The position numbers were made by a program, and so were the translations under genes. This document shows, piece after piece, positions 11,848-46,497 of a stretch of DNA of 64,000 bases. The stretch's first letter is position 1, and each line of letters opens with the position of its first letter. A model generated the notes under the pieces. That model was not told the DNA's origin, did no database searches, and saw only the letters and a program-made list of their open reading frames with translations. The stretch is from a bacterium (GTDB taxonomy: Bacteria > Bacteroidota > Bacteroidia > Cytophagales > Cyclobacteriaceae): contig JANSWY010000024.1 in NCBI GenBank assembly GCA_024743255.1, positions 1-64,000 on the forward strand, read 5' to 3'.

Positions 11848-13362
11848 GTGAAACAAAATCAAAAGAAATATCAAAAGCTTGCTCTGATACTTGGGGATCA
11901 ATTATTCCCAGACCATAGTGCTCTGGAACCAGATGAAGAAACTCTGTTCTTTATGGCTGAGGATTATGATTTATGTACTCATTTCAAATACCACAAGCAT
12001 AAATTGATCTTATTCTTATCGGCGATGAGATCGCATGGTGATTTCATCAGGACTAGTGGTGACCTTGATTACTGGGAATTAAACGAATCAAACAGGAATA
12101 AATCTTTTGAGGATAAGCTGAAAGAAACAATTCTAAAGAGCGGTATTTCGGAGATTTCCACTTACGAAGTTTCGGATTCCTTTTTCAGAAATAGATTACT
12201 GAAGCTGGCGGAAGAACTGAATCTTAAAATATCCTTTAAATCCTCACCAGCATTTCTTACCAGTCAATCCGATTTTACTAATTACCTGGGACAGGTCAAG
12301 AAACCATTTATGCATACCTTCTATCAGAGACAAAGGAAAGCAATGAATCTTTTGTTGGATGAGTCAGGAAAACCAATGCATGGTAAGTGGTCATTTGATG
12401 AGGATAACAGGAAGAAGTTACCAACCAAGACTTACGTCCCACAAAGAAATGTTGCAGCTTCAACTACTCACACTGAAAAAGTTATGAAGCTGGTCGATCA
12501 ATTATTCCATGATCATCCTGGTGATATTAAATTCTTTAATTGGCAGACTACAAGGGATGGTGTATTGAATGAGTTACAGCATTTCCTGGATGAAAAGTTT
12601 AGTCATTTTGGTCCGTATGAGGACGCCATTGAACCGGAACACACCTTTATGTTTCACACCACATTGTCACCTTATTTGAATATGGGTATTATTACTCCTC
12701 AGGAATTGGTGAACGCAATTGTCAGCTATGCTCAGAAAAATCAAATTCATTACCCAAGTGTGGAAGGTTTGATTCGACAAATTGTTGGATGGAGAGAATT
12801 TGTGAAAGGTATTTATGACAATTATGAGGAAAAGCTGCAATCAAACTTCTTCGATCATAAGAATACCATGAAAGCGTGTTGGTATGACGGGACCACAGGA
12901 ATAAAACCTTTGGATGATAGTATTAAGAAAGCTGTACAGCATGGATATACACATCATATTGAAAGACTGATGATACTGGGCAATTTTATGTTGCTGTGTG
13001 AGATACATCCTGATGAGGTGAATAAATGGTTTATGGAAATGTATGTTGATTCTGCGGATTGGGTGATGTTGCCAAATGTGTATGGAATGAGTCAATTTGC
13101 AGATGGAGGAATTTTTGCGACCAAACCCTATATCGCAGGAGCCAATTATATCCTCAAAATGAGCCATTATAAGAAATCAGAAACATGGGTAGAAACTGCA
13201 AATGGATTGTACTGGAGGTTTATTGATCGGAATAGAAGTTTATTTCAGAGTAACCCCAGAATGTCAATGATGACCAGGACATTAGATAAAATGGATGATC
13301 AGAAGAGAAGCAATTTGTTTGAAAAAGCTGAGACTTTCATTTCCTCAGTAACAAACAATTGA
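11848..13362 (+). CDS. Cryptochrome/(6-4) photolyase of the PhrB/COG3046 type, FeS cysteines missing
   Basis: About 504 residues starting at GTG (no suitable ATG; start still uncertain). The N terminus LALILGDQLFPDHSAL and the antenna domain fit the prokaryotic FeS cryptochrome/photolyase family; the FAD domain carries MFHTTLSPYLNMG, GWREFVKGIY, HHIERLMILGNF and MSQFADGG (from Met414). Known members hold a 4Fe-4S cluster through one Cys before the HHIxRLM helix and three in a C-x2-C...C-PF-x-LYW segment. Here the first aligns with Pro in GIKPLDDS, and the later segment reads SHYKKSETWVETANGLYW, shortened and without cysteine. The fold and FAD motifs look intact, so it may still repair DNA or sense light without a cluster (inference). 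Confidence 0.88.
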   Translation: MKQNQKKYQKLALILGDQLFPDHSALEPDEETLFFMAEDYDLCTHFKYHKHKLILFLSAMRSHGDFIRTSGDLDYWELNESNRNKSFEDKLKETILKSGISEISTYEVSDSFFRNRLLKLAEELNLKISFKSSPAFLTSQSDFTNYLGQVKKPFMHTFYQRQRKAMNLLLDESGKPMHGKWSFDEDNRKKLPTKTYVPQRNVAASTTHTEKVMKLVDQLFHDHPGDIKFFNWQTTRDGVLNELQHFLDEKFSHFGPYEDAIEPEHTFMFHTTLSPYLNMGIITPQELVNAIVSYAQKNQIHYPSVEGLIRQIVGWREFVKGIYDNYEEKLQSNFFDHKNTMKACWYDGTTGIKPLDDSIKKAVQHGYTHHIERLMILGNFMLLCEIHPDEVNKWFMEMYVDSADWVMLPNVYGMSQFADGGIFATKPYIAGANYILKMSHYKKSETWVETANGLYWRFIDRNRSLFQSNPRMSMMTRTLDKMDDQKRSNLFEKAETFISSVTNN

Positions 13363-16508: not shown

Positions 16509-16786
16509 CTTTTTGAAACGTGATTGTTGGATATCTGCCTTTGTCTTGAGCATTTAAACCTTAAATCCGAGTCCTCAACTTTCTTAAGATGCTTGGTTTT
16601 TCTATTCTGAACTCGCTCCCTCCACATCAGGAAACTGCTCTTTTTCATACTATTCCTCATAATTTTAATGACTTCCTTTTCCGGCAGGTCAAACTGTGTC
16701 TGGATGGCATCAAATGGAGTTCGGTCTTCCCATGCCATCTCAATTACTCGGTCAATCACCTCCGGACTCAACTCTTTCTTCTTCAT
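16505..16786 (-). CDS. TIGR03643 family protein
   Basis: 93 residues: [20 protein letters not shown], then [13 protein letters not shown], then [17 protein letters not shown]. This matches the small helical TIGR03643 family that co-occurs with photolyases. It overlaps the 3' end of the upstream photolyase by 35 bp and the start of DUF2256 by 4 bp, so the three are an operon. The HTH-like first half suggests DNA contact, but no function is established. Confidence 0.88.
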
Positions 16787-18230
16787 TTTGTAGTGCTAAT
16801 ATTTTTCTTGCTTCTTCTCTGGTATGTCTTTTATTCTTTATAGACCATAGGTTCTTGGATGCCTCCTTATATGTCTGCTTTACATCCACAATCGGGAAGG
16901 GATAATCTTTACCAATCTTCACCCCATACATGTTTTCTTCCATGGCCGTCATGGTCCATGGTTTGTGTTTAAACTGCAATGGTAAATTCTTCAGTACTGG
17001 AACCCATTTTGAAATAAACACAGCATCAGGATCATTGTCTTCTGATTGCTTAACAGGATTATAAATTCTGACGGTATTGTATCCCGTAGTGCCAGCTTGC
17101 ATTTGAAACTGTGGGTAGTGTATTCCTGGTTCAAAATCCAGAAATAAGCTTGCCATATAATCAGCTCCTCTTTTCCAGTCGAGCCATAGGTGATGGGTGA
17201 GAAAAGATACCAACATTGATCTCATTCGAAAATTGAGGTAACCGGTTTCAATTAAGCATTTCATACAGGCATCAATGAGTGGGTATCCGGTATTTCCGGT
17301 TTCCCATGCCTGATACTTTTGTTCACTCCAATTATCTCTGATTTCATTATAAGCAGGATTGATATTCATGTATTCATATCTATCCATCATTTCAAATTTT
17401 TGTATAAAATGACAATGCCACCTTAGTCTCGACAAGAATGATTGAATGTTACGTTTGCTTCCTCCGTTTTTTGAAGCTTCCTTACCTGCTTGATATACTT
17501 GTCGCATCGACAGATTTCCCCATGCTAAATATGGCGAAAGCCTGCTACAGGATTTTCTACTATACTCTGGTTTTGATATATGCTTATTGTAATTGTTAAC
17601 TCTCACTTCAAAGAAGCTCTTCAAATAAAGTTTTGCCTTGCTTTCACCGCCTTCCTGGAAACTTGGATGTCTAGTTTTGAACTTCGAATCAACCTGTAAG
17701 TCATTAATTAATGAACCTTTCAATTTAACACTTTGCAGTTGCTCAATCTCAGGATTTTCAACTAGGCATTCCATTTTAGAATACCAATGTTTTGGCCAGT
17801 TATTCCTTTTCCTGATTCCTCTAATAACTCCTCCGGTTGGAGTTTCAGTCCAATTAATTCCATTGGTCTTACAAAACTCAGCTACTGCTTTATCCCGATC
17901 ATAAGTGATTTGTATACCGGTTTCCTCATGACTGAAAATAATTTTGATTTGATATTGTTCTGTAAGTCTTGTGAAGAATTCTTGTACTTCAGTTTGAAGA
18001 AGATATAGCTGTTGGTTATAGAATTTTAGTTGTTCTGCTAAGTCCGAAAAGCTTTCATAAACGAACCTCCAATGTCTTTCATCCGATTGTGGTGCATTAA
18101 TGAGACTTGGCTCCAGAAACCCAATTAATAAAGTTGGTCTCCGATCATCAATTGCCAGTTTCAAAGGCAAATGATCCATTAACCGGTAATCTCTTTTAAA
18201 CCAAACAATATTGATTTCAGGTTTGCTCAT
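16752..18230 (-). CDS. Cryptochrome/deoxyribodipyrimidine photolyase family protein
   Basis: 492 residues. N-terminal antenna domain: NIVWFKRDYRLMDHLPLKLA. FAD domain: SPYLAWGNLSMRQVY, SRLRWHCHFIQKFE, GYPLIDACMKCLIETGYLNF, RMRSMLVSFLTHHLWLDW and FDFEP-like LFLDFEPGIHYPQFQMQAG. This is the third photolyase-type protein in 7 kb and belongs to a different subclass from the DASH and PhrB-like ones; the linked TIGR03643 and DUF2256 genes are its usual companions. The target lesion cannot be told from sequence alone. Confidence 0.9.
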   Translation of the reverse strand: MSKPEINIVWFKRDYRLMDHLPLKLAIDDRRPTLLIGFLEPSLINAPQSDERHWRFVYESFSDLAEQLKFYNQQLYLLQTEVQEFFTRLTEQYQIKIIFSHEETGIQITYDRDKAVAEFCKTNGINWTETPTGGVIRGIRKRNNWPKHWYSKMECLVENPEIEQLQSVKLKGSLINDLQVDSKFKTRHPSFQEGGESKAKLYLKSFFEVRVNNYNKHISKPEYSRKSCSRLSPYLAWGNLSMRQVYQAGKEASKNGGSKRNIQSFLSRLRWHCHFIQKFEMMDRYEYMNINPAYNEIRDNWSEQKYQAWETGNTGYPLIDACMKCLIETGYLNFRMRSMLVSFLTHHLWLDWKRGADYMASLFLDFEPGIHYPQFQMQAGTTGYNTVRIYNPVKQSEDNDPDAVFISKWVPVLKNLPLQFKHKPWTMTAMEENMYGVKIGKDYPFPIVDVKQTYKEASKNLWSIKNKRHTREEARKILALQNEEERVESGGD

Positions 18231-25104: not shown

Positions 25105-27642
25105 TTACTTGAATCTAATTCTCGCCATCACATTAGGAGTGAATCCAAGTGCAAGGTTTTCAATTCTTCTTGCTCCTGATAACCCTTCATTCCTGAAATA
25201 AGTATTGAGCTTGTTTTCTCTCCCGGTAAGATTCCAGAAAGCAACACCAAATTCACCAACCAGATTATCGCCTATATTGAACCAATATTTACCAGAAAAA
25301 TCAACTCTCAAATAATCATCCTGACGTTCGGTATTAGGGTTCAGGTAGTTGATTCGTCCTCCAATTATTGTAGGGTCACCAGGATTGGTAAAGGGGCTTC
25401 CAGACCTCCAATTAACATTAGTTGAGAGCTGCAAGTGATTGTCTTTGTATCCAAGACCTAATGTCAGTTGATGTGGGATATCGAGATTACTCGTGAACTT
25501 TGGTGTATTCAATGGAGTAAACACATATTCATTCTCTGAAAAAGCATAACTAACCCAACCAGAGAATCGATCAATCTTCTTATTGAATAGCAGTTCAATT
25601 CCCTTTACCAGGTAGCTACCACTTTCTCTAACCAACTCAAATTGGTTTTGAAAAGCCTGACTCGAAGTAATAATGCCATCCACCTGCTTCATGTATCCAT
25701 CAACAGTAAACATCCATCCGGATAGGTTGTATTGTAATCCAATTGAGCCTTGTGTGCTCGTAAGGAGAGGAATATCATCTTCATCCACTAATACCCATCT
25801 TCTTTTCTCTACTCCCAAAAAATCATTCTGTAAGTCAATTACCTGGACTAAGCTCTGACTTTTGGACTCTCCAAGTACCTCAATAGCAATGGCATCTGAT
25901 AATTGGTGGTTAAAGCTTAGTCTTGGTTCAATTGTGGTGCGGTCAATGTCAACATAATTGTTCAATCTCATCCCAACTTTAGCCTGGGTTTTCATGTCGG
26001 CTGATAAGTAATCAATTTCTGAGTACAATGTGTGATTTTGAATAATCTCCTTGATGTATCTGCGAAACTCAGGGTTATCAAGATCTTCCAGATTGCCTAC
26101 TGTGATTTCATTGAAGTGATATCCACCATTTAATTGAACAAGATCATTAATTCTGAATGATTGGTTAAATTTTAAACTGATGTCTGAAACTTCATTCTGT
26201 TGCAGAAGCCTTTGTGAGTTTTCAATATCGAAATTTATTGACTCCAGATCGTATTCTGACATGTTGACTTGGATCTGAGACTGAGTACTTTTGTTCCAAT
26301 TTCTGGAATATTGCAGGCCATAACCCACTGAATTTTGTTTCAAGGTACTTTGTTTGAATTCCTCTTCTCCATTTACAAACCCTGACTCTTCATGCTCCAA
26401 TTCATTTCCAATTTGAATCATTGATAATGAGACTCGGTCTTTGTCACTCAGTTTGGAATTGACTTTCACATTGAAGTCGTAATACTGAAATGATTCATTA
26501 CTGAAATTCACGGTATCCGTATCAGTGCTGAGGATTTCTGTATCTCTAAAAGCTCTGTCAGAATAACTTTCAAAGGTCGGCGAATCAAATAAATCTGAAA
26601 TTGATCTTCGGGCAGAAATTTGAACACTTGTTCCTTTCGTTATTGGTGTATTGATAACCAAATCGGTATTGAGGAGATTGAATCCACCTTGTGCTTGAAA
26701 CTCTTTCGCGATTTCGGTTGTGGAATTTATTTGAAGTAACCCAGATACAGCGTCTCCAAACTGAGCACTGGTACCATTCTTGGTAATACTCACCCGATCA
26801 ACAGCGTACGGATTAAAAGCAGATATCAATCCGAAGAAATGACCTGTTTGGTACATTCTTACTCCATCCCATAAAACTAAGTTTTGGTCATTTGTGCCAC
26901 CTCTGATGTTTATATCCGCTACAGATTCCTTGAAGCTGGAGATGCCTGGAAATGCTTGCAAAGAGAATAACACATCGGGTTCAATCAGTCCAGGTAGGAT
27001 TTGAAGATCTTTGGTGCTTACATATAATTGACCATTAGCCATCTTGTCAATCCCTGAAACCAGATAATCAGGGATAAGAATCTCTGGTAGTATTTGAAGT
27101 TTTGGAACCAGATAGATAGTACCACAGTCTGTGCCTTGTTTCGGTTCAGACGCAATTGACTCGTAACTTATATGTTGAACATTGAGATTTTGTCCTTTTT
27201 CAAAAGAAAGCTCGAAATATCCTGTGCTGTCAGATACGGTGTGATTCGATCCGTGTTTTACAGTAGCCAGTGCAATAGGATATTGCGATTCTATATCTAT
27301 TAGGTAGCCACATACTATTAGGGGTTCTTCCTTCTTGGTTAAGGCGAAATACTTATCGCTGATTTTCTCAACTTTAAGATTGGTTTCTTGCTGCAATAAA
27401 TCCAGGGCCTGTTGAAGAGTAAGGCCTTCTTTCAAGGGAACAATCAATACTTCATTTACAAACTCATCGGCATATGAAAATGAAATATCATAAGTGCTCT
27501 CAATTTTTTCAATGAATTGTGTTAAAGGGATTTTAGAGGTTTGGGAGTGAACTGAAAGAGAATTGAATAGGAATAGAAGAGTTCCCAGGAGTAGGAGCTT
27601 AGTTTGAATCTTGTTTAAATAGCAATATCTTTTTCCCTTCAA
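25105..27642 (-). CDS. TonB-dependent receptor with N-terminal STN domain
   Basis: 845 residues beginning at TTG and overlapping the FecR 3' end by 44 bp; no ATG is available nearby. Signal peptide to about 33. STN (secretin/TonB N-terminal) domain about 35-105, carboxypeptidase-like beta domain about 107-180 (GYFELSF), plug about 200-310 (VADINIRGGTNDQNLVLWDG), then the beta-barrel ending GFTPNVMARIRFK. It belongs to a FecI/FecR-regulated set: the STN domain signals through FecR to the sigma factor. The substrate is unknown; no SusD gene is next to it, so it is not a standard Sus pair. Confidence 0.92.
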   Translation of the reverse strand: MKGKRYCYLNKIQTKLLLLGTLLFLFNSLSVHSQTSKIPLTQFIEKIESTYDISFSYADEFVNEVLIVPLKEGLTLQQALDLLQQETNLKVEKISDKYFALTKKEEPLIVCGYLIDIESQYPIALATVKHGSNHTVSDSTGYFELSFEKGQNLNVQHISYESIASEPKQGTDCGTIYLVPKLQILPEILIPDYLVSGIDKMANGQLYVSTKDLQILPGLIEPDVLFSLQAFPGISSFKESVADINIRGGTNDQNLVLWDGVRMYQTGHFFGLISAFNPYAVDRVSITKNGTSAQFGDAVSGLLQINSTTEIAKEFQAQGGFNLLNTDLVINTPITKGTSVQISARRSISDLFDSPTFESYSDRAFRDTEILSTDTDTVNFSNESFQYYDFNVKVNSKLSDKDRVSLSMIQIGNELEHEESGFVNGEEEFKQSTLKQNSVGYGLQYSRNWNKSTQSQIQVNMSEYDLESINFDIENSQRLLQQNEVSDISLKFNQSFRINDLVQLNGGYHFNEITVGNLEDLDNPEFRRYIKEIIQNHTLYSEIDYLSADMKTQAKVGMRLNNYVDIDRTTIEPRLSFNHQLSDAIAIEVLGESKSQSLVQVIDLQNDFLGVEKRRWVLVDEDDIPLLTSTQGSIGLQYNLSGWMFTVDGYMKQVDGIITSSQAFQNQFELVRESGSYLVKGIELLFNKKIDRFSGWVSYAFSENEYVFTPLNTPKFTSNLDIPHQLTLGLGYKDNHLQLSTNVNWRSGSPFTNPGDPTIIGGRINYLNPNTERQDDYLRVDFSGKYWFNIGDNLVGEFGVAFWNLTGRENKLNTYFRNEGLSGARRIENLALGFTPNVMARIRFK

Positions 27643-28492
27643 TACTATATGAAATATTAAATGGCACTGTAATCGATCTTAAAGCAGCTTCCATGTGCTC
27701 GTGATCAAAACTACCAGTAAATAATCTCTCTTTATTTATTTTCTTAGTTCGTAAAGATACATCGAATTGTCTTTCGAACTCATCTAAAACTAAATGATAT
27801 GGAGTGCTTCTGAAAGTACTTTTGCCTTTTAACCATTCTGGAGAAACATTCAAAATCTCTTTCCAATTGTTAAAACCGGAAATAGTCCACTGAGCAGTTT
27901 CGCCTGGCAGAAGTGTAATTTCTTGATTTCCAGACTCTACCAATACTTTCCCTTCGTAACAATCAACCCTGAAATAATCCTGGCGATTTGTAACATTAAA
28001 TGATGTTCCAAGTACAGTAACATTACCTATTTCTGTCTGAACTGTGAATTTTTGTCCTTTCTCTACCTCAAAAAACGCTTCACCCGATAAATCAACCAAT
28101 CTTTCCGAATCCCAATCTGACTTGGAATACTTGATTTGAGTTCCGGCATTCATGAAAACTCTGGAGTTATCCGGTAAATTGAATGATAACGTTTCGTTAT
28201 TAGAAGTGGATAATAATGTGGGGCGTGGCATTAAGTAAAATACTACACTGCTTACAATTAGGAATACTGCTGCTATTTGCAACGCCGGTTTCAAAAATCT
28301 AACTATAGATTTTTTCTTTTCTGCTTTATCAAACTGGAAGTCGCCTGGATTGTACTCTGGTGCTTTGAAATTATCCAGCTCCTCATCCAAGGAGGAAATA
28401 AACCGGTATTCACTTGTTTGCTTAAAAGCCTCAAGCTCCTTCTCGGTCATTTCGCCGTTCAGATATTTCAATATGGTACTTTTTTCTTCCAT
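27599..28492 (-). CDS. FecR family anti-sigma/regulator
   Basis: 297 residues. Cytoplasmic N-terminal part (~1-80, helical, TEKELEAFKQ), one transmembrane helix (~88-105, ALQIAAVFLIVSSVVFYLM), and a periplasmic FecR domain (~115-215, FNLPDNSRVFMNAGTQIKYS, GEAFFEVEKGQKFTV, VTVLGTSFNVTNR) followed by a C-terminal STN-like domain (~225-297). It should bind the STN domain of the adjacent receptor outside and control the sigma factor inside. Upstream neighbour is the sigma gene (77 bp gap). Confidence 0.92.
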   Translation of the reverse strand: MEEKSTILKYLNGEMTEKELEAFKQTSEYRFISSLDEELDNFKAPEYNPGDFQFDKAEKKKSIVRFLKPALQIAAVFLIVSSVVFYLMPRPTLLSTSNNETLSFNLPDNSRVFMNAGTQIKYSKSDWDSERLVDLSGEAFFEVEKGQKFTVQTEIGNVTVLGTSFNVTNRQDYFRVDCYEGKVLVESGNQEITLLPGETAQWTISGFNNWKEILNVSPEWLKGKSTFRSTPYHLVLDEFERQFDVSLRTKKINKERLFTGSFDHEHMEAALRSITVPFNISYSIEGKKILLFKQDSN

Positions 28493-28569
28493 GCTTCTGA
28501 TATAAAACAGTTTAGCTGAATTTTCTCCTACCGTGATTCTCTATTTTTTACAAAATTATCTCGGTAAAC

Positions 28570-29091
28570 TTATATTTTGCCTAGTTTTTCTTGTAATATT
28601 TTTAATGCCGTATATATTCTTTTTTCTACTGTCTTCCTTGATACTCCCAGGATTTCAGCAATTTCCTTGTGTCTTTTACCTTCAACGCGGTTCATTAAAA
28701 ATGTGACCCGCTGATCTTCAGTAAGATCTTCCAATGCCTTCTTTAGCTTGTCCTGAAACTCCTTTCCTTCCAAAACAAATTCCGGAGACTCGTTGGTGCT
28801 ATTCTTTTGGGGTTCCTGACTTTTATAGTTAAGTACTGTTTTCTTTTTGGAAAGCTCATTAAGCATTTGATTGTTTGCAACCGTAAAGAGAAATGACTTT
28901 GCTTTATCAGGAGTGACCTTGCCACAGTTATCCCATAATTTGGCAAAAGCTTCCTGAACCAGATCTTCGGGATTATTATCTGCACCGTACTTATAGTATA
29001 GGAAATTATACAAATCCGGAGCTAACTTCTGAAATAGCTGGTTAAAAAGGGTACGGTTACATATGTTGTCTTTCTCTGAAGGCGACTTCAC
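28570..29091 (-). CDS. FecI-like ECF sigma-70 factor
   Basis: 173 residues, GTG start. Region 2 about 15-80 (LYNFLYYKYGADNNPEDLVQ, then AKSFLFTVANNQMLNELSKK) and region 4 about 118-168 (LEDLTEDQRVTFLMNRVEGK, HKEIAEILGVSRKTVEKRIY). It directs transcription of the FecR/receptor genes downstream and perhaps of the divergent DUF4382 gene, whose start is only 57 bp away (inference). Confidence 0.92.
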   Translation of the reverse strand: MKSPSEKDNICNRTLFNQLFQKLAPDLYNFLYYKYGADNNPEDLVQEAFAKLWDNCGKVTPDKAKSFLFTVANNQMLNELSKKKTVLNYKSQEPQKNSTNESPEFVLEGKEFQDKLKKALEDLTEDQRVTFLMNRVEGKRHKEIAEILGVSRKTVEKRIYTALKILQEKLGKI

Positions 29092-29147: not shown

Positions 29148-30632
29148 GTGGAAGCACTATTTTATCATAGAATCAGACAATTTTTGATACTTTTTTTAGT
29201 GTCTGGTATTGTAGTGTCGTGTGGTGAAGAGGCTGAAGAACTGAAGCCAATAAATAGAGATTTGGTTTTTTCAACTCAATCAGAGCTGGGAGTTGCATTT
29301 AGACACATCTCATTGCTAGATGGGTCTTCCGACAATATTCTGGATAATTCCAATTGTCATAAAATCGTTTTTCCTGTTAGTATTGAATATCAAGGAGAAT
29401 CATCAATTATAGAAAACGAGTCAGAACTGGTTAATCTGATTGATCAATATAACCAGAACCCTTATTTAGGTTTACCTACCATTAATTCTTTTCCTGTTAC
29501 ATTAAGAACAGAAGATTATACAACAGTTACCATTGCTTCTGCTTCTTCCTTGGAGGCATTAGCAGCAACATGCAATTCATTAATCGACTCAGATATTGAA
29601 TGTGTAGATTTCATATATCCGGTTAAGGTTGCTACATATGATGAAATGAATCAGCTTGCAGATGTCGTCACAATGGACAGTGATGAAGAAATGTATTTTC
29701 TGCTATCCAATGAGAAGGACGGAGACTTTCTGGCGATACAGTATCCTATAGATGTTATTGACGCATCAGGTGAAGAAGAAACTATAATAAGTAATTCTGA
29801 TTTTGAGTCACTTTTAGGCTCAGATGCTGAATCATGCGATGAGAATGATGTTTTATATGAAGATGCTGGAGGACCGACTCCTACTTTACAAACACTATCA
29901 TTGCAACTAACTGATGCGCCATTCCCATTTGGGCTAATTTCAGAGGTTAATATCAATATCACCAGGGTGGAGGTGAAAACCGGTGAGGAGAATGACAGTA
30001 TTCCTTTTATAACAATCTATGATACCCCTACTACTTTTAATATGTTGGATCTTACAAACGGGACTACCGCACCATTAGGGTCGACCGACCTTCCTTTAGG
30101 GAGTTACGAGTTTTTCAGAATTATAGTAGACGATGGTAATGTTGTGATGGAGGATGGTGAGATATTCGAATTGAAGGTTCCATCTGGAAGTCAAACTGGG
30201 ATCAAGATTGAAGCTGAGCAAAACATTGAGGTACAGGGAGGTGTTGATTTACAGTTTTTACTAGATTTTGATGTAAGTAAATCACTTGTGGTTAGAGGAA
30301 ACCCAGATTCCCCTAATGGAATTAATGGCTTTAATTTTAAGCCCGTATTAAGAGCAGTAAATTTGGCAAATACAGGTAGTATTGCTGGAGTTGTTTCTGA
30401 TATATCAACTACTGAACTGCTTGCAAATGCCACAGTCTCAATATTAGCCGCTGATACTGTATATACTACTTCACTTACCAATAACATGGGAGAGTATAGA
30501 ATTATAGGTGTAACAGAAGGTACCTACGATGTTCAGGTTGATTTAGATGGTTATTTGCCAGCTCTGCAAGAAGGTGTCAACATAAGTGTAGGAGCTGAGA
30601 CCTCACAAGATTTTCAGTTAACAGAAGAATAA
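29148..30632 (+). CDS. DUF4382 lipoprotein with carboxypeptidase-regulatory domain, paralogue 1
   Basis: 494 residues, apparent GTG start (no in-frame ATG upstream of the signal peptide). Lipobox VSCGEEAEE. Residues ~40-235 are a conserved N-terminal region shared with paralogue 2 (ISLLDGSSDNILDNS, DIECVDFIYPVKVA, NQLADVVT). Residues ~245-400 are DUF4382 (LSLQLTDAPFPFG, INITRVEVK, FKPVLRAVNL). Residues ~405-490 are a carboxypeptidase-like transthyretin fold (GSIAGVVSD, NNMGEYRIIGV). Probably an outer-membrane lipoprotein expressed with the FecI system; function unknown. Confidence 0.85.
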   Translation: MEALFYHRIRQFLILFLVSGIVVSCGEEAEELKPINRDLVFSTQSELGVAFRHISLLDGSSDNILDNSNCHKIVFPVSIEYQGESSIIENESELVNLIDQYNQNPYLGLPTINSFPVTLRTEDYTTVTIASASSLEALAATCNSLIDSDIECVDFIYPVKVATYDEMNQLADVVTMDSDEEMYFLLSNEKDGDFLAIQYPIDVIDASGEEETIISNSDFESLLGSDAESCDENDVLYEDAGGPTPTLQTLSLQLTDAPFPFGLISEVNINITRVEVKTGEENDSIPFITIYDTPTTFNMLDLTNGTTAPLGSTDLPLGSYEFFRIIVDDGNVVMEDGEIFELKVPSGSQTGIKIEAEQNIEVQGGVDLQFLLDFDVSKSLVVRGNPDSPNGINGFNFKPVLRAVNLANTGSIAGVVSDISTTELLANATVSILAADTVYTTSLTNNMGEYRIIGVTEGTYDVQVDLDGYLPALQEGVNISVGAETSQDFQLTEE

Positions 30633-30659
30633 TTTCAAGATATTTTACGATGAGTTTAA

Positions 30660-31069
30660 AAGAAAATGCCTCACAAAGTGAGGCATTTTCTTTTTCGTTG
30701 TGCGTTGGAACTATCAGACACAACCTACATAACATTTCTGTATTTGTGGTAAAAAAGAAGTGTATGGACCACAGATTAGAAACACTTACTCGGAACTGGT
30801 ATCATACACCTCAATATTTTTAAGAATTAGGAAGTCGTGGCACCAAACCACTGAATAGCCACATCTTCCTAAATCTATTTTTTGTGAACAAACAGCCATA
30901 TATAAATAGCCGCCATGTACCGGTTGAAAATTAATCTTGTTAAATAGGCACTGTATACCAAACACCAAGCATTGATATCAAAAACAATACTTTCATAGCT
31001 ATCTGGTTTAATTTCGATACTTCTTGCCTGCTCACATGTATAAAACCGATGAATTGTCATTATTCCTAC
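30660..31069 (-). ncRNA. Candidate structured ncRNA, copy A (downstream of DUF4382 paralogue 1)
   Basis: This 410-nt stretch aligns over its whole length, with indels not in multiples of three, to 32883-33255 after the second paralogue. Conserved blocks (plus strand) include GGAACTAT-n-ACACAACC, ACAGATTAGAAA, CTTGTTAAATAGG, CAATACTTT and ATTCCTAC. A hairpin at 30827-30872 (TTAGGAAG/CTTCCTAA and GTGGC/GCCAC) is kept in both copies. Both copies end, in the minus direction, at a terminator of unrelated sequence, so the minus strand is the likely transcript. Short minus-strand ORFs here are not conserved. It fills most of the 605-bp gap between genes. Confidence 0.5.
30663..30689. terminator. Bidirectional terminator after DUF4382 paralogue 1 and ncRNA copy A
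   Basis: AAAATGCCTCAC and GTGAGGCATTTT form a 12-bp perfect stem with a 3-base loop; T-rich sequence follows on both strands. It ends the plus-strand DUF4382 gene and the minus-strand RNA. Confidence 0.85.
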
Positions 31070-31162
31070 TTCCCCTACATTTTTTTACAATGCTTTCGCT
31101 TTTGTAATAAACTGGTGAAAAGCTAGAAATAACCACGATTGGTATTTATTGATAATACGCGG

Positions 31163-31170
31163 TATTTTTG
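31163..31170 (+). promoter_or_regulatory. Bacteroidota -7 element upstream of paralogue 2
   Basis: TATTTTTG matches the TAnnTTTG consensus, 68 bp before the predicted start. Confidence 0.5.
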
Positions 31171-31237
31171 TTAACGCTACTTTATTTATAGCTACATAGC
31201 CACTCACGTGCAAGAGGGTACCCGTTAAAAAGAGAGA

Positions 31238-32860
31238 TTGAACGAACATAAATTGAGCCATAACAGATATCACGGATTTTATTTACTACTGATTCTTGCA
31301 TTGGGATCTATATTCATAGGTTCCTGTGAGACAGAAGTACGGGAAATTGATCCTCTTGATGAACAATTTGTCTTTACCAGAAATTCAGATATCGGTACTA
31401 TTCTAGAAAATATTTCACTGCTGGATGGTTCTTTTGATAATATTCTTGATAATTCAAGCTTTTATAGGGTTGAGCTACCTGTGACGATTCAGTTTCAAGG
31501 AGAAAGTATTCTGATATCCAACCTTTCTGACATAGAGAATATAAGAACCGAATATTTGAAAAATCCTTATTTAGGTTTTCCACGGATAACGTCTTACCCT
31601 ATTACTTTACTGTCGGACCAATATGAAAACATGGTGATCACAGACGAATCAAATCTGCTGGAAGTAATTGGAGCAAGCAGAAATAGAATTGATCAGGACA
31701 TTGAGTGTGTTGATTTCCAATATCCAATAAAATTAGCAAGCTACGATCAGCTCAATCAACTTGCTGATGTAATTACAGTGCGGTCAGATGAGGAGTTATA
31801 TTGGACTATTTTAAATGGCAGCTCTGACGATATACTAGGGCTTCAATTTCCGGTGGCATTATTGAACCATGAGGGAGATGAGGAACTGGTGGATGATAAT
31901 CAGAGTTTTGAGAATGTTTTAAGTAGTCAGGGAAGTGTATGTGATGAATCTGATATTATATATGATCAGAATTTAGATGTTCCGCAATTAGAAACGTTAA
32001 CTCTTTCTTTAACTGATGCACCATTTCCATATGATTCAGTTGCGGAGACAAACGTTACTATTTCAAGAATTGAATTGAATACTGGGAATGACACCATTCC
32101 AACTGTGCTAATTACAGATCAACCACAAACCTATAATATTCTTCAACTGATAAATGGAGTCTCGGTCAATATAGGGTCTGTAGATCTACCTGCTGGAACT
32201 TTTGATTCATTTAAATTATTCATTTCGGAGAGTTGTGTTACCATGAAGAATGGCGAAACTTTTGAGATCCTCCTAACTGATGATATTCTTTCCGGTATAA
32301 CCATTAAGCCAATCGGAGAACTTGAGATTCAAGAATTCAGCAATCCAACTTTTCTTCTGGATTTTAACCTGGGTGCATCTTTTCTACCTTTTGTAGTTGA
32401 TGAAAATATTGTTGGGTTTGATTTAGTTCCTAAAATCACAAGTATTGATTTAGCCAATTCTGGTTCACTAAGTGGGATTGTTACTTCACAGGAAGATAGT
32501 TCACCATTGGGGAATGCTCAAATATCAATTTTTGCAGAAGATACTTTGTTCACTTCCTCGGCTTCAAATGAATTAGGAGAGTATCGAATCATAGGGCTTC
32601 CAGCGGGAAACTATAAGGTTGTCGCTGAGTTAGATGATTATGAGGATTTAGAATTATTGGATGTAGTTATTGAAATCGATATGGAAACTACATTGAACAT
32701 AAGTCTTACACCAGGTGATTCCGGTGATGATGGGGGACGAATTACTATTTGTCACATTCCTCCTGGTAATCCAGATAATGCCAGAACCATTGAAATTGAT
32801 GCATCCGCATGGCCGGCACATGAAGCGCATGGCGATTATTTGGGTGAGTGTGTTGATTAA
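31238..32860 (+). CDS. DUF4382 lipoprotein, paralogue 2, with C-terminal CHIPPGNP motif
   Basis: 540 residues, TTG start (31238 or 31253; no ATG). Lipobox IGSCETEV. It has the same layout as paralogue 1: shared N-terminal region (ISLLDGSFDNILDNS, DIECVDFQYPIKLA, NQLADVIT), DUF4382 (LSLTDAPFPYD), and a carboxypeptidase-regulatory domain (SNELGEYRIIGLPAGNYKV). It adds about 40 residues ending in ITICHIPPGNPDNARTIEID then WPAHEAHGDYLGEC, a motif with paired Cys and His residues seen at the ends of many secreted proteins and possibly metal-binding (inference). Tandem duplication with divergence; function unknown. Confidence 0.85.
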   Translation: MNEHKLSHNRYHGFYLLLILALGSIFIGSCETEVREIDPLDEQFVFTRNSDIGTILENISLLDGSFDNILDNSSFYRVELPVTIQFQGESILISNLSDIENIRTEYLKNPYLGFPRITSYPITLLSDQYENMVITDESNLLEVIGASRNRIDQDIECVDFQYPIKLASYDQLNQLADVITVRSDEELYWTILNGSSDDILGLQFPVALLNHEGDEELVDDNQSFENVLSSQGSVCDESDIIYDQNLDVPQLETLTLSLTDAPFPYDSVAETNVTISRIELNTGNDTIPTVLITDQPQTYNILQLINGVSVNIGSVDLPAGTFDSFKLFISESCVTMKNGETFEILLTDDILSGITIKPIGELEIQEFSNPTFLLDFNLGASFLPFVVDENIVGFDLVPKITSIDLANSGSLSGIVTSQEDSSPLGNAQISIFAEDTLFTSSASNELGEYRIIGLPAGNYKVVAELDDYEDLELLDVVIEIDMETTLNISLTPGDSGDDGGRITICHIPPGNPDNARTIEIDASAWPAHEAHGDYLGECVD

Positions 32861-32882
32861 TGAATTTGTACTTGAAGAAATG

Positions 32883-32904
32883 AAAAAGCCCCGTAATTCG
32901 AGGC
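32883..32904 (-). terminator. Minus-strand terminator of ncRNA copy B
   Basis: On the minus strand GCCTC-n7-GGGGC is followed at once by TTTTT. On the plus strand no T-run follows, so this terminator works only for minus-strand transcription, although no minus-strand protein gene lies upstream of it. Confidence 0.65.
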
Positions 32905-33255
32905 GCCTTCAATCCTGCTGCGTATCGGAACTATTACACAACCATTCGAAACAAGGAAACAGTACAGATTAGAAAACACTTTGTTTAATAGGTTTCACTT
33001 GCCTCAGTATCTTTTTAAAATTTAGGAAGCTGAGGCACAAACCACCGTAACCCACAGCCTCCTAAATGTTATTTTGTAAGTAAACATTGATTTCCCGTCA
33101 ATGTACCAGTTGAAATATGATCTTGTTAAATAGGTGATATATACCATACCCCCAATACTATAATCAAATACAATACTTTGAGGGCAATTTGGCCTAGTTT
33201 TGATACATCTTGTTTACTCACAGGAATTAAACAGATACTCCCCCCGGATTCCTAC
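32883..33255 (-). ncRNA. Candidate structured ncRNA, copy B (downstream of DUF4382 paralogue 2)
   Basis: Diverged second copy of the element at 30660-31069, in the same place relative to its DUF4382 gene. The shared hairpin is at 33021-33066 (TTTAGGAAGCTG with CAGCCTCCTAAA). Its one unpaired position on the plus strand (A-C) becomes a G-U pair on the minus strand, which again favours the minus strand. A one-strand terminator closes it. No conserved reading frame. Together with the repeats at 33252-33311 it fills the 506-bp gap after paralogue 2. Confidence 0.5.
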
Positions 33256-37216: not shown

Positions 37217-39142
37217 ATGAAAATTAAAAAGCACTCTGCCAGAGTCCTTCTGGCGGTCTCATTATGTCTTGTTGGTTGGAGTTGTGAAGAGGATGCTATA
37301 TTAGTAGATACAGATCTACAAATGCAATCTGCGGTAGGGGATCAAATCAATATTTCTAATTCGGGATTTGAAAGTAGTTGGTCAGGATGGAATGATACTG
37401 ATCCTTCAGCCTTATCCAGCGATGCTAATTCTGGTTCAAAATCTGCTAAGATCACCGGATCCTCTGGTAGGTTTGAGCAAACAGTTTCTGTCAATGCCAA
37501 TACGAATTATACGTTGCAGGCTTATGTCCTGGATAATGGAAAAATTGGAGCCATTGCAGGAGGAAATGATTACAACCAAACTGTTGATCACAGCAACTGG
37601 TCTGCTGTTTCTGTTTCATTCAATTCAGGATCTTCAACATCGGTGACCATATATGGTGCTTACGGTGGAGGAGAAGGTAGATTTGATGACTTTTCATTGA
37701 CTGAAGGATCTTCAGGTGGTTCCTCGGGAGGTCAATTAGTTCCTGTAAGCGTTTCTGCGAATGGAGATGATGGGAATGTTCCACAAAATACACTTGATGG
37801 CAATTTTGGAACGAGGTGGTCTTCAAATGGCTACACTGGAAAATACATTACATATGATCTTGGGTCTAACAAGTCTGTATCCAGTATGAAAATTGCCTGG
37901 TTCAAAGGTGATCAACGACAAGCATATTTTAAAATTAGAGTGGGTACTTCCACATCTAATTTAGCTACCGTCTATGATGGTTCAACCTCCGGTAGCAGTG
38001 GAAATACAACAGGCCTTGAATCATATGATTTTGCTGCGACTACAGCCAGATATGTAAGAGTTTCAGGGTTTGGAAATTCAAGTAATTCCTGGAATAGTAT
38101 AACGGAGGCAGAAATATTTGGTAATGGAGGAGACCCTCAGGACACCACACCTCCCGGTGCAGTTTCAAACCTGTCAGCAAATGCAGGTGATGGAAGCGTA
38201 AATTTGAGTTGGAGTAATCCAGGAGATTCTGATTTCAGCAATGTGGAAATCAGTTATAATGGAAATACTATAACAACCTCCAATCAATCCAGAACGATTT
38301 CGGGATTGACCAATGGTAATCAGTACACATTTACTGTAATAGCTTACGATAATGCAGGAAATGCATCTGCATCAAGATCCGTTTCAGCAACACCTCAAGG
38401 CTCAAATCCACAACCTGGACAAACAAACTTGGCTAACTGGAAATTGACACTGCCAGTAAGCAATAGCAGCGGTTCACTTTCAGGAGGTCAGGGAGATGCT
38501 TATGAAGTTCCTGCTAGTACACTAGCAAACTGGACAAGTAACAGCGCCATTCCAAATGCATTAGAGCCTTATTTCAATTACAATTCTTCCGGGAATATGG
38601 AATTCTATTGTGTTTACACAGGTATTACAACTTCAAGTAATACACAAAATTCCAGAACTGAACTAAGAGAAATGATAACTGGTACTGATGATCAATACAA
38701 CTGGACTATTGGTGAAGGAGGTGTGATGGAAGGTAGGTTTAGAGTGAAAGATCTTAATAATGCTTCAAAACTCTTTGCAATGCAAATTCATGGTAAAGCT
38801 CCAGAATCCAAGCCCTTGTTGAAAATAATTTGGGACAATGGAAAGATAAGAGCACTGAGAAAAATCAACAGCGGTGGAAGTTGGGTAGATGACGAGGATA
38901 CAAGCTCCAGAGTGAACGTGGCAGCAAATGAATGGGTGAAGGTTAAAATCACTTGTAATGCATCACAACTTAGAGTTGATGTCAACGATCAGGAGATGAT
39001 TACCTGGACAGATGGTTTAATAGACGATTGGGGGAGCAATAATACATTTTACTTCAAAGCTGGTAATTATCTGCAGCATCATGACGTTGATGAAGGCCAT
39101 AGCGCTGTAGTGGAGTACGATTATGTTTATATAACGCACTAG
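37217..39142 (+). CDS. PL7 alginate lyase, multimodular lipoprotein
   Basis: 641 residues. Signal with lipobox VGWSCEED, so probably a lipoprotein. Order: carbohydrate-binding-like beta domain (~30-165), F5/8C (CBM32-like) domain (~173-305, NTLDGNFGTRWSS), fibronectin III (~310-395), PL7 catalytic domain (~400-641). PL7 motifs: SRTELRE (Arg480, Glu482, Arg484), QIH (Gln523, His525) and YFKAGNY (Tyr612 to Tyr618). It cleaves alginate by beta-elimination; which linkages it prefers is not clear (QIH is often linked to polyG preference). An operator typical of uronate regulators sits upstream. Confidence 0.93.
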   Translation: MKIKKHSARVLLAVSLCLVGWSCEEDAILVDTDLQMQSAVGDQINISNSGFESSWSGWNDTDPSALSSDANSGSKSAKITGSSGRFEQTVSVNANTNYTLQAYVLDNGKIGAIAGGNDYNQTVDHSNWSAVSVSFNSGSSTSVTIYGAYGGGEGRFDDFSLTEGSSGGSSGGQLVPVSVSANGDDGNVPQNTLDGNFGTRWSSNGYTGKYITYDLGSNKSVSSMKIAWFKGDQRQAYFKIRVGTSTSNLATVYDGSTSGSSGNTTGLESYDFAATTARYVRVSGFGNSSNSWNSITEAEIFGNGGDPQDTTPPGAVSNLSANAGDGSVNLSWSNPGDSDFSNVEISYNGNTITTSNQSRTISGLTNGNQYTFTVIAYDNAGNASASRSVSATPQGSNPQPGQTNLANWKLTLPVSNSSGSLSGGQGDAYEVPASTLANWTSNSAIPNALEPYFNYNSSGNMEFYCVYTGITTSSNTQNSRTELREMITGTDDQYNWTIGEGGVMEGRFRVKDLNNASKLFAMQIHGKAPESKPLLKIIWDNGKIRALRKINSGGSWVDDEDTSSRVNVAANEWVKVKITCNASQLRVDVNDQEMITWTDGLIDDWGSNNTFYFKAGNYLQHHDVDEGHSAVVEYDYVYITH

Positions 39143-43930: not shown

Positions 43931-45376
43931 CTACTCAATTTTCTTTCCTTCAATCCTCGAAAATTTCATACTAGCTACTGATTCGTCCTTAAAAGTAAAT
44001 TTGAAACGTTGGCCAGAGTTCTTACTGAAAAATGTACTATCAGATTCCGGCCATAAGAAAACAGGTTCTTCAGCTATGTCCGCATCTAATTCTAGCCCAT
44101 CATCCTTTACTATTATTGTTGCTTTACCGTATTCCAGAAAATCATACTTGCCTACAAATTTCGAGAGTTGCTCCTGAGATTGCTCTTCGAAGACTCTTTT
44201 GCTATGAGAATAATCTGGTAAGTTGTATTCCCTAACGATACTGTGCATTATTTCCCTCATTATGATGCCACCATTATTTGAATTAACCATAATCACCACT
44301 GCATTAGCCGTTTCTTTCCAAACTAAAAGCTCAGCCCGAAAACCTTCATCAGACCCACCGTGCCCAAAACTTAGATCGAGCACATAAGGACCAAGACCTT
44401 GTGAATCTTCGTTAGGAGTAAGCATTTCGTTAACCGTTTTTGCTTTTAAAAGTCCGTCTTCTTGTGATTGCAATATTTGCTGAATTTCTTTTCCCCATAG
44501 GATCAACTCTGAGGGTGTTGTCCAAAGACCAGCAGCAGCCATTTCCGGGTAGGTATGCCATTTGCCTTCTACCGGGTTGCCATCTGAATGATAACCTGTT
44601 GCAGCTATTTGATGATACTTTTCTGGGAGTGGATTCTCGTAAGTACTGGATTTCATTCCGAGCGGATTTAATACATTTTCATACATGATCTCAGGGAATT
44701 GCTTTTGTTCAACATCGGTGATCATAAGCTGCATAATGGTATAACCACCACCGGAATATCTCCAACCCTCACCTGGTTTTTTATAAACACGAACTGGGTC
44801 TGTGTTGCCTTTACCATCTAAGATTTCTGGAGTATCTGGAATGGTATCACCTTTGGCATATCCAGGAAAACCCCAGACAGTGAGGCCTGCTGTGTGGTTG
44901 AGAATCCTTCTAAGTGTGACTTTTTCTTCCTGAGTAAACTCATTATCTGGCAATTTCCAGCTTGATAGATAGGTGTTGACATTTTCATCTAAATCAAAAG
45001 TACCTTGTTCAACAAGTTGGAGCGCTCTGGTAGCCGCAATTGGTTTGCTAATAGATCCTGCTTGAAAAAGTGTTTCAGTAGTAACTTTTCGATTTTCTGA
45101 GCTATCTGCAAATCCATAACCTCTAGCCCATTCAACTTCGCCATTGTTAAGTGCTGCAATACTGACACCAGGAATATTTAATTCCCTCATTCTTTCTTCG
45201 ATACTGTAAATGTTTTGAATGATCGTGTCCTTGTATTGGATTTCCAGATTCGACTCCAGTCCATTTTCTATTCTGGAGATTCTTTCATTTAAGTATTCTT
45301 GGTTTTTATTGGAGTTGTTGACACAGCTCAATAGAATGTATGAGCTAAGTAAGATTAGGCAATTGGTTTTCATCAA
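43931..45376 (-). CDS. Serine hydrolase (class C beta-lactamase/DD-peptidase family), lipoprotein
   Basis: 481 residues. Lipobox LLSCVNNS. Beta-lactamase fold with SISK (Ser108, Lys111), YSGGGY as the Tyr motif and FGHGGSDEGF in place of KTG. A C-terminal ~100-residue extension (VGKYDFLEYGKATIIVK to KFSRIEGKK) resembles the DUF3471-type lipocalin-like tail of such hydrolases. Likely a periplasmic or surface peptidase/esterase rather than a true beta-lactamase (inference). Followed downstream on the same strand by nothing; upstream lies a second serine hydrolase. Confidence 0.88.
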   Translation of the reverse strand: MMKTNCLILLSSYILLSCVNNSNKNQEYLNERISRIENGLESNLEIQYKDTIIQNIYSIEERMRELNIPGVSIAALNNGEVEWARGYGFADSSENRKVTTETLFQAGSISKPIAATRALQLVEQGTFDLDENVNTYLSSWKLPDNEFTQEEKVTLRRILNHTAGLTVWGFPGYAKGDTIPDTPEILDGKGNTDPVRVYKKPGEGWRYSGGGYTIMQLMITDVEQKQFPEIMYENVLNPLGMKSSTYENPLPEKYHQIAATGYHSDGNPVEGKWHTYPEMAAAGLWTTPSELILWGKEIQQILQSQEDGLLKAKTVNEMLTPNEDSQGLGPYVLDLSFGHGGSDEGFRAELLVWKETANAVVIMVNSNNGGIIMREIMHSIVREYNLPDYSHSKRVFEEQSQEQLSKFVGKYDFLEYGKATIIVKDDGLELDADIAEEPVFLWPESDSTFFSKNSGQRFKFTFKDESVASMKFSRIEGKKIE

Positions 45377-45468
45377 ATTTTGAGTTTTAGTATTGATCGG
45401 TTTTTTTGAGTACCGAGGATTTGATGAATGGTTACGTGGTTGATGGTTAATTTTGGTTGCTTAGTTTT

Positions 45469-46497
45469 TCATGAACTCCCTCTTCTTAATATCTTAACTA
45501 TCCTGTTAATCGTAATTTCAGAGAGATTCCATTCATATCCATTAAAATCAGTTGTATTGATAAACTGTACCACAACAGCATCAATATCTTTATGGTATTC
45601 TGCCAGACTTTGGTAACCAACAACAAGACCTCCATGGTCATAGACATAAGGATAAATCTCCTTTTCTCCGTCATCAAAAACTGAACCATCGTTTAAAGCC
45701 CGCAGGAAAATGCCCACATCCTGAGCTGTTGCTAACATTCCATATTCCCTGGCTTTAAAATCATCGTCGTACCCAACATAATATCCACTCATAACATCAC
45801 CTAAATCAACATCTTTGATTGAAAAATAGGTGTTATTAAGGTTCAGAGGAATCAATATTCTCTCTTTGATAAATCTTTGGTGCTGGTAACCAAGTAATTT
45901 ATCCATGAGCTGACGAAGCAATAGATAATTAGTATTGGAATATTCATAATCTTCATCGGGTTCAAAACTAGCTGGTAAATCGAGAGCAAACTCAAGAGCT
46001 AGTTTACCATTATCTTGTTCATTTTCCCAGTATGCAGGATTATCTGTATAGTTGGGTATGCCAGACCGGTGTTGAATCATCATCTTTAAAGTGATCTTTT
46101 CTGCATTTTCAATTCTACCTACAAGTTCAGGAAAGTGATAAGCAACTGTTTCATCTAAAGATAGGCGTCCCTCTTTAACGAGCTTGGTGATAGAAACGGC
46201 CACATATAGTTTACTTATACTGGCGATTTTAAATAATGAATTTGGATCAGCTGGTGTTTTGGATTTTCGATCCTTCCAGCCTCCGGTATAAAATGCTGGT
46301 GGTTTTCCGGCTTCATCCACATAAACAATCATGCCATCAAACCCATGACCAATAGCCTCCTCTACCTGCTCCTGTATGGTGTCTGGTAGAGGAAGTATCC
46401 ATGCTTTTACCAATATCCAGGGGACATAGAATAATGAGAATGCGGTACTTGTTAATAACACAATTCTAAATATCTGTTTACCCCGATTCTTTTTCAT
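45469..46497 (-). CDS. Serine hydrolase (beta-lactamase family), membrane-anchored
   Basis: 342 residues with an N-terminal transmembrane anchor (~11-32). Motifs SISK (Ser93, Lys96), YSNTNY and YDHGGLVVGYQS. Closely placed paralogue type of the gene downstream (43931), but shorter, without the C-terminal tail. Function probably peptidase or esterase. Confidence 0.88.
   Translation of the reverse strand: MKKNRGKQIFRIVLLTSTAFSLFYVPWILVKAWILPLPDTIQEQVEEAIGHGFDGMIVYVDEAGKPPAFYTGGWKDRKSKTPADPNSLFKIASISKLYVAVSITKLVKEGRLSLDETVAYHFPELVGRIENAEKITLKMMIQHRSGIPNYTDNPAYWENEQDNGKLALEFALDLPASFEPDEDYEYSNTNYLLLRQLMDKLLGYQHQRFIKERILIPLNLNNTYFSIKDVDLGDVMSGYYVGYDDDFKAREYGMLATAQDVGIFLRALNDGSVFDDGEKEIYPYVYDHGGLVVGYQSLAEYHKDIDAVVVQFINTTDFNGYEWNLSEITINRIVKILRRGSS

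Follow-up and report, generated by a model that had tools for sequence, protein, structure and literature searches.

Two regions of the minus strand, each convergent with a DUF4382 lipoprotein gene, are diverged copies of one element that combines a conserved RNA fold with a conserved 31-codon frame. They lie in the window, a 64,000-nucleotide stretch of a contig from a bacterium of the Cyclobacteriaceae (Bacteroidota), and are called here copy A and copy B. The duplication, the minus-strand structure, the conservation of the frame at the protein level, and the pairing of the start codon in both copies were computed. On this basis each copy is quite plausibly a small minus-strand gene for a toxin-like, silent mRNA of a membrane peptide, a reading that we put forward tentatively. 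Its heavily folded and terminated RNA, ∼375 to 410 nt long, would serve as messenger for a single-pass membrane peptide of 31 residues. In the full-length transcript, whose 5′ and 3′ ends would be joined by a short closing helix, the GTG would pair with sequence past the stop codon and lie buried within a 12-bp helix. With the GTG buried in this way, the full transcript would be expected to be poorly translated until it is processed, remodelled, or caught during synthesis. The positions of all features are collected in Table 1.

Table 1. Positions in the window of the two RNA copies, their parts, and the adjoining lipoprotein genes.
Feature	Positions	Strand	Remarks
DUF4382 / carboxypeptidase-regulatory-like lipoprotein gene, in front of copy A	29148..30632	plus	
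RNA copy A, predicted	30661..31069	minus	5′ end placed from closing helix; 3′ end, terminator repeat
Perfect 17-bp inverted repeat, end of copy A	30658..30694	minus	may also serve the plus-strand lipoprotein gene
Large hairpin, copy A	30827..30872	minus	downstream of ORF
Start-codon helix, copy A	30883..31036	minus	arms 31036-31025 and 30894-30883, 12 pairs
ORF, copy A	30940..31035	minus	31 codons, GTG to TAA, MSRQEVSKLNQIAMKVLFLISMLGVWYTVPI
Paralogous DUF4382 gene, in front of copy B	31238..32860	plus	
RNA copy B, predicted	32881..33255	minus	ends placed as for copy A
Terminator-like hairpin, end of copy B	32888..32904	minus only	from terminator scan
Large hairpin, copy B	33022..33065	minus	downstream of ORF
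Start-codon helix, copy B	33075..33222	minus	arms 33222-33211 and 33086-33075, 12 pairs
ORF, copy B	33126..33221	minus	31 codons, GTG to TAA, MSKQDVSKLGQIALKVLYLIIVLGVWYISPI

Duplication, fold, and ends of the RNA

That the two regions are duplicates had been proposed in a first-pass annotation, and the comparison agrees. When copy A was searched by blastn against its own genome (6.6 Mb), the matches were copy A, copy B (71% identity over ∼280 nt, query 41-320, E 3.5e-26), and an inverted self-match of the terminator repeat; the copies also share a gapless block of 136 nt that is 74% identical. Over the whole aligned length 223 of 349 positions (64%) are identical. The identities in the 5′ leader, the ORF, the stretch 3′ of the ORF, the hairpin stretch, and the 3′ tail were 59% (20/34), 72% (69/96), 68% (38/56), 78% (40/51), and 63% (59/94, with 29 gap columns), respectively. 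The DUF4382 proteins next to the copies are 42% identical (203/485), and their genes are saturated, with an NG86 dS of ∼2.1 and only 28 of 78 four-fold sites identical. Because neutral sequence of the same age is expected to be near random, RNA stretches that are still 59 to 78% identical appear to be under selection, which is the simple reading of their conservation; later gene conversion may have contributed to the similarity. All coding and structural evidence given below comes from these two sequences of one genome.

The fold distinguishes the strands when the two copies are considered together. The two-sequence consensus fold with the terminator gave a z value of −5.93 for the minus strand versus −1.28 for the plus strand, and without the terminator the values were −5.65 and −0.53. 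For the 5′ half they were −3.83 and +0.76, for the large hairpin alone −3.08 and −1.89, and for the 3′ half alone −1.85 and −2.37, the last pair not separating the strands. Single-sequence folds of the minus strand with the terminator gave −5.12 for copy A and −4.02 for copy B; like-for-like values without the terminator are close (copy A, −2.12 minus and −1.49 plus; copy B, −1.31 plus), so single-sequence folds distinguish the strands weakly. All 80 of the 80 consensus pairs are kept in both copies, 10 of them with changes on both sides; 1 of 500 shuffles reached this, and slid versions gave at most 3. Such counts are biased toward the consensus, which was itself built from the two copies, and the column-shuffled z value is the fairer test. 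The large hairpin is conserved, as had been noticed before, and one of its A-U pairs is changed to G-U, which is compatible with the minus strand only. The closing helix between the 5′ and 3′ ends has seven pairs, one of them variable. The modelled folds uphold the earlier suggestion of a minus-strand RNA convergent with each DUF4382 gene, and we consider it highly likely that a duplicated structured RNA of this kind is present.

Several established RNA types were considered and set aside. A 3′ UTR of the lipoprotein mRNA was rejected on the ordinary consensus fold of the plus strand, a cis leader because the terminator precedes any minus-strand gene in the ORF list, and tmRNA because ARAGORN reported 0 genes in the window and Rfam gave no match. 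Rfam had 0 matches at the gathering score over the whole window, and the best matches of a permissive scan (18.8-25 bits) were far under their gathering scores, in agreement with the earlier remark that the RNA is not recognizable as RNase P, tmRNA, 6S, or SRP RNA.

The ends of the RNA were less uniform than first described. A terminator in the minus direction had been claimed for both regions. For copy B this stands, its terminator-like hairpin being on the minus strand only, but the repeat of copy A can act in both directions and is absent from the list of the terminator scan; that scan, with 4 sites in 5.3 kb versus 3.0 in shuffles, is by itself little proof. The description of the two terminators as unrelated was overstated, since GCCTC occurs in both left arms in the same alignment columns. 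No promoter could be assigned on either strand of the two copies, and a search for a convincing plus-strand promoter inside both found none. By eye, a weak plus-strand −7-like box without a good −33 partner, at most a tentative candidate for an antisense promoter, is present within the frame at the same aligned place, near 31009 in copy A and near 33195 in copy B.

The shared frame, its start codon, and the predicted peptide

The RNA had been described as non-coding, with no reading frame shared by the two regions. The alignment contradicts this: one GTG-to-TAA frame on the minus strand is common to both copies and free of gap columns in each, and a conserved coding frame is what the first-pass annotation had itself named in advance as evidence against its view. 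The indels not divisible by three to which it had pointed are present, but they lie outside the ORF and say nothing against the frame. The two products are identical at 22 of 31 residues, and the changes between them include R/K, E/D, M/L, F/Y, and M/V. Read in one frame of the minus strand, the gapless block has 10, 7, and 18 substitutions at the first, second, and third codon positions, and the ORF itself has 7, 6, and 14 differences. In a structure-aware null, the same substitutions were moved among positions with an equal base and an equal paired or unpaired state. The observed protein score of 113 compares with 51.9 (sd 15.5) and 50.9 (sd 15.4) in the two directions of this null, in which 0 of 20,000 replicates reached the observed score in either direction and the frame stayed open in 3,433 and 4,327 of 20,000. 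A simpler null reached the score in 0 and 1 of 20,000. Among 13 frame segments on both strands the 31-codon frame ranks first, the runner-up having a p of 0.0055. This pattern of conservation as protein argues against the non-coding label and suggests that the RNA very probably codes for a peptide. The GTG start is supported by the fading of the similarity between the copies upstream of it; no Shine-Dalgarno sequence lies near the GTG, so the start is treated as putative.

Helix 3 of the consensus contains the GTG; its 12 pairs are complete in both copies, and its 3′ arm lies past the stop codon. Between the copies one pair of this helix is changed on both sides and four pairs on one side. For the three bases of the GTG in the complete RNA, the probability of being unpaired is 0.05, 0.01, and 0.12 in copy A and 0.00 in copy B. 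In an RNA truncated ahead of the partner arm this probability is 0.06 to 0.23 in copy A and 0.44 to 0.48 in copy B; truncation frees the start codon only in part because other pairs form, and the mean openness around the start is hardly altered by the cut (from 0.35 to 0.30 in copy A and from 0.31 to 0.43 in copy B). Removal of the 3′ arm of the closing helix left the pairing of the start unchanged in the folding model. A fold that blocks translation initiation is common, though not universal, among type I toxin mRNAs; in the two copies the start codon is paired, but its predicted release on truncation is partial.

The peptide has a polar, positive N terminus followed by a hydrophobic stretch, with a net charge of +2 and a best 19-residue mean hydropathy of 1.67 in copy A and 1.97 in copy B. 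Single-sequence AlphaFold modelled the copy B peptide as one helix (residues 3-28, mean pLDDT 87.6). We predict that the 31-residue product is a single-pass membrane peptide; a short hydrophobic peptide (<60 residues) with a membrane helix is the form expected of a type I toxin, and the peptide has this form by prediction only. At E ≤ 10, Pfam gave no match for copy A and only a sub-cutoff match to DPAGT1_ins (E 0.019) for copy B, a negative that to our knowledge covers the type I toxin families so far as Pfam holds them. NCBIfam had no match to the peptides, and neither PADLOC nor a phage tblastn search had a match to that of copy B. In PHROGs there was one weak match to a holin family over the membrane stretch, with E values of 0.0021 for copy A and 0.11 for copy B. 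None of the 14 pattern stretches found for the peptides in viral contigs was confirmed as a relative. A peptide search at E ≤ 0.5 matched 95 of 295 genomes of the family, the own genome included; no credible relative was among them, the best match outside the own genome (E 0.0049) being about what chance gives for 295 genomes.

Distribution of the RNA and the DUF4382 locus

Relatives of the RNA were sought with blastn, with a sequence-only model, and with a covariance model of 221 positions. The class and family genome samples overlap, and stricter filters apply above 40 genomes, so weak relatives may be lost. By blastn, 1 of 39 genomes (relatives and the own genome) had a match, and this was the own genome. 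In 32 other loci, retrieved because they encode DUF4382-type proteins, the sequence-only model had no match beyond the window. It matched 4 of 395 class genomes, including the own, and the other three matches were rejected as lying inside long ORFs. Three of 390 family genomes matched, again including the own; a match inside a 398-aa ORF was rejected, and a match in a further genome (G010), overlapping only a 65-aa ORF, was poorly aligned and judged to be probably chance. A covariance search, proposed earlier as a check on the RNA, recovered both copies but yielded no credible relative in 245 family genomes: in the own genome only the two copies were found at E ≤ 10, and the one other genome with a match (E 0.07) was rejected, the match lying opposite a 472-aa ORF. 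In the 32 DUF4382-type loci this model gave one match, with an E of 1.1. Pattern scans were also made. Among 28 viral stretches the sequence-only model gave a single match, which was poor (E 0.017) and did not fall on the pattern site, and among six further ones a match (E 0.023) covering the pattern site alone. A genome scan for one pattern, which covers only relatives with that exact stretch, returned eight stretches, and the three of these that were read (L074, L078, and L079) held no such RNA. As no credible relative came from the genome searches made, the RNA and its peptide are known from one genome.

In the window, genes for an ECF sigma factor, a FecR-type anti-sigma factor, and a TonB-plug receptor (25105-29091, minus) are divergent from the DUF4382 genes (29148-32860, plus); the FecR, TonB-plug, and DUF4382 genes themselves point to the Bacteroidota. 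Two short elements, GTTAAAAAG and GGGTAC, were seen by eye upstream of both DUF4382 genes (29038-29062 and 31213-31236), in differing order, and are possibly a sigma-factor site. The lipoprotein had matches at E ≤ 1e-20 in 51 of 148 family genomes; outside the own genome, near-full-length matches occurred only in G114, G043, and G047 (43%, 42%, and 34% identical, respectively), of which G043 and G114 belong to one genus and G047 to another. Each of the three loci also has, next to the DUF4382 genes and divergent from them, three ORFs whose sizes and layout correspond to the ECF, FecR, and TonB genes of the window; ORF translations were read for G114 alone. A short DUF4382 gene comes next after 36 bp in G114, 33 bp in G043, and 11 bp in G047, and spacings of 11 to 36 bp leave no room for the RNA between the DUF4382 genes in any of the three loci. 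The pairing of the RNA with each DUF4382 gene, claimed earlier, is thus true of the own locus but fails in these three loci from two genera. Homology with a ∼290-bp spacer beyond the short DUF4382 gene of G043 and G114 was considered and rejected, there being no convincing alignment. The same-genus genome G001 has no DUF4382 gene at E 1e-20 and no downstream peptidase at E 1e-50.

Other features of the window were recorded. Protein B has an extra C-terminal tail of ∼48 residues (GRITICHIPPGNPDNARTIEIDASAWPAHEAHGDYLGECVD and a few preceding residues; 32720-32857) that protein A is without. The N-terminal ∼235 lipoprotein residues (29148-29850) match a separate set of proteins without DUF4382 in many family genomes, over a query range of about 6-247 in which no Pfam domain was reported. 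Elsewhere are two different DNA-photolyase-type genes (DPRP-related and FAD_binding_7) within 5 kb (11848-13362 and 16752-18230), a multidomain alginate lyase gene with Alginate_lyase2, F5/F8 type C, and fn3 domains (37217-39142), and two adjacent minus-strand genes with a Pfam Beta-lactamase (serine hydrolase) domain (43931-46497).

A candidate toxin-like mRNA and its alternatives

A hydrophobic peptide, a start-codon lock, and tandem duplication together are the design of a type I toxin mRNA, which suggests that the peptide would act on the membrane of its own cell. Most likely, in our judgment, it does so and the fold keeps it silent; transcription, the block of translation, membrane action, toxicity, and any antisense RNA are the parts that we infer. 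The antisense antitoxin is the defining part of a type I system. Since such an antitoxin is not established here and any toxicity is putative, we do not file the gene as a type I member, and describe it as apparently built like a type I toxin mRNA and resembling a gene for a self-poisoning peptide.

Other readings accommodate part of the same evidence. The structured mRNA may instead encode a small membrane protein that is non-toxic, perhaps one that assists or regulates the neighboring ECF/FecR/TonB/DUF4382 surface system, and the fold would then be a translational switch. This reading draws on the same frame and fold as the toxin-like one, and both copies adjoin paralogous lipoprotein genes; we nevertheless regard it as somewhat unlikely, because the surface system can do without the RNA, as the three loci from two genera indicate, and because tandem copies and a locked start suit a harmful product better. 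The RNA 3′ of the frame is conserved in its three stretches (68%, 78%, and 63%) beyond the need of a simple mRNA and ends in a terminator-like hairpin, as would befit a dual-function sRNA, which would regulate by base pairing and encode a small peptide as well. A conserved 15-mer, however, has a single further site in the genome, with one mismatch, which is no more than the control, and we consider this explanation distinctly unlikely.

It is very unlikely that the RNA is purely non-coding and its frame accidental. The fold has good support, and some of the conserved sequence is outside the frame, but structure-aware shuffles never matched the observed protein score, and this frame ranks first among the 13 segments. 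The copies might also be what is left of a mobile element, or a gene in decay that was duplicated along with the lipoprotein gene and no longer has a function. This would fit the narrow distribution and the lack in G001 of both the DUF4382 gene and the downstream peptidase. Against it, the genome has two copies only, no plasmid DNA match was found, the phage and viral-contig searches gave no match to the copy B peptide and no confirmed peptide relative, respectively, and decaying sequences this diverged would not retain every consensus pair together with a protein-like pattern; we give this account scarcely any credence.

For the toxin-like reading, known systems offer partial parallels. The hok/sok systems have multiple or tandem copies, a structured mRNA of ∼400 nt with a 5′-3′ fold-back, and a small membrane peptide, as here; unlike theirs, the peptides in the window have no match to a Pfam toxin family, no overlapping leader ORF or Sok-like RNA was identified, and the closing helix does not hide the start in the folding model. 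Dual-function sRNAs such as SgrS/SgrT likewise combine a short ORF with conserved non-coding sequence in an independent, terminated RNA, whereas the frame described here is buried in structure. The RNA is longer than expected for AapA. In the AapA/IsoA family of Helicobacter (PMC6733600), a small membrane-type peptide is encoded in a folded mRNA and the full-length AapA transcript is inert through a long-distance interaction, which in AapA3 joins the 5′ and 3′ ends and hides the Shine-Dalgarno sequence; several copies per genome also occur, AapA I to VI being named there. The present element differs from AapA in that the start codon itself pairs beyond the stop, no antisense RNA is established, and there is no sequence relation. 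The msoT1/msoA1 pair of Microcystis (PMC12390103) is also a type I-like candidate outside the phyla known for such systems; MsoT1 is described as a protein with a pair of predicted membrane helices and was assayed in E. coli, whereas the peptide described here has one predicted helix and is known from sequence alone.

According to that report (PMC12390103), type I systems before the cyanobacterial case were known only from Proteobacteria, Firmicutes, and Tenericutes, and search bias is named as a likely cause of this limit. Our literature searches found no type I system in Bacteroidota. The two copies may, though we hold this with some doubt, represent a new narrow family in Bacteroidota of type I toxin-like membrane-peptide genes, silenced by pairing of the start codon beyond the stop and occurring twice, behind the surface-lipoprotein genes that are likewise duplicated. 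Membrane-peptide genes inside structured RNAs are easily overlooked by gene finders and homology searches, and here two diverged copies in one genome gave a coding and a structural signal without a known relative. A toxin-like peptide would widen the known range of type I-like systems; a peptide of another kind would still leave a clear case of an RNA on which selection has apparently acted for both fold and peptide.
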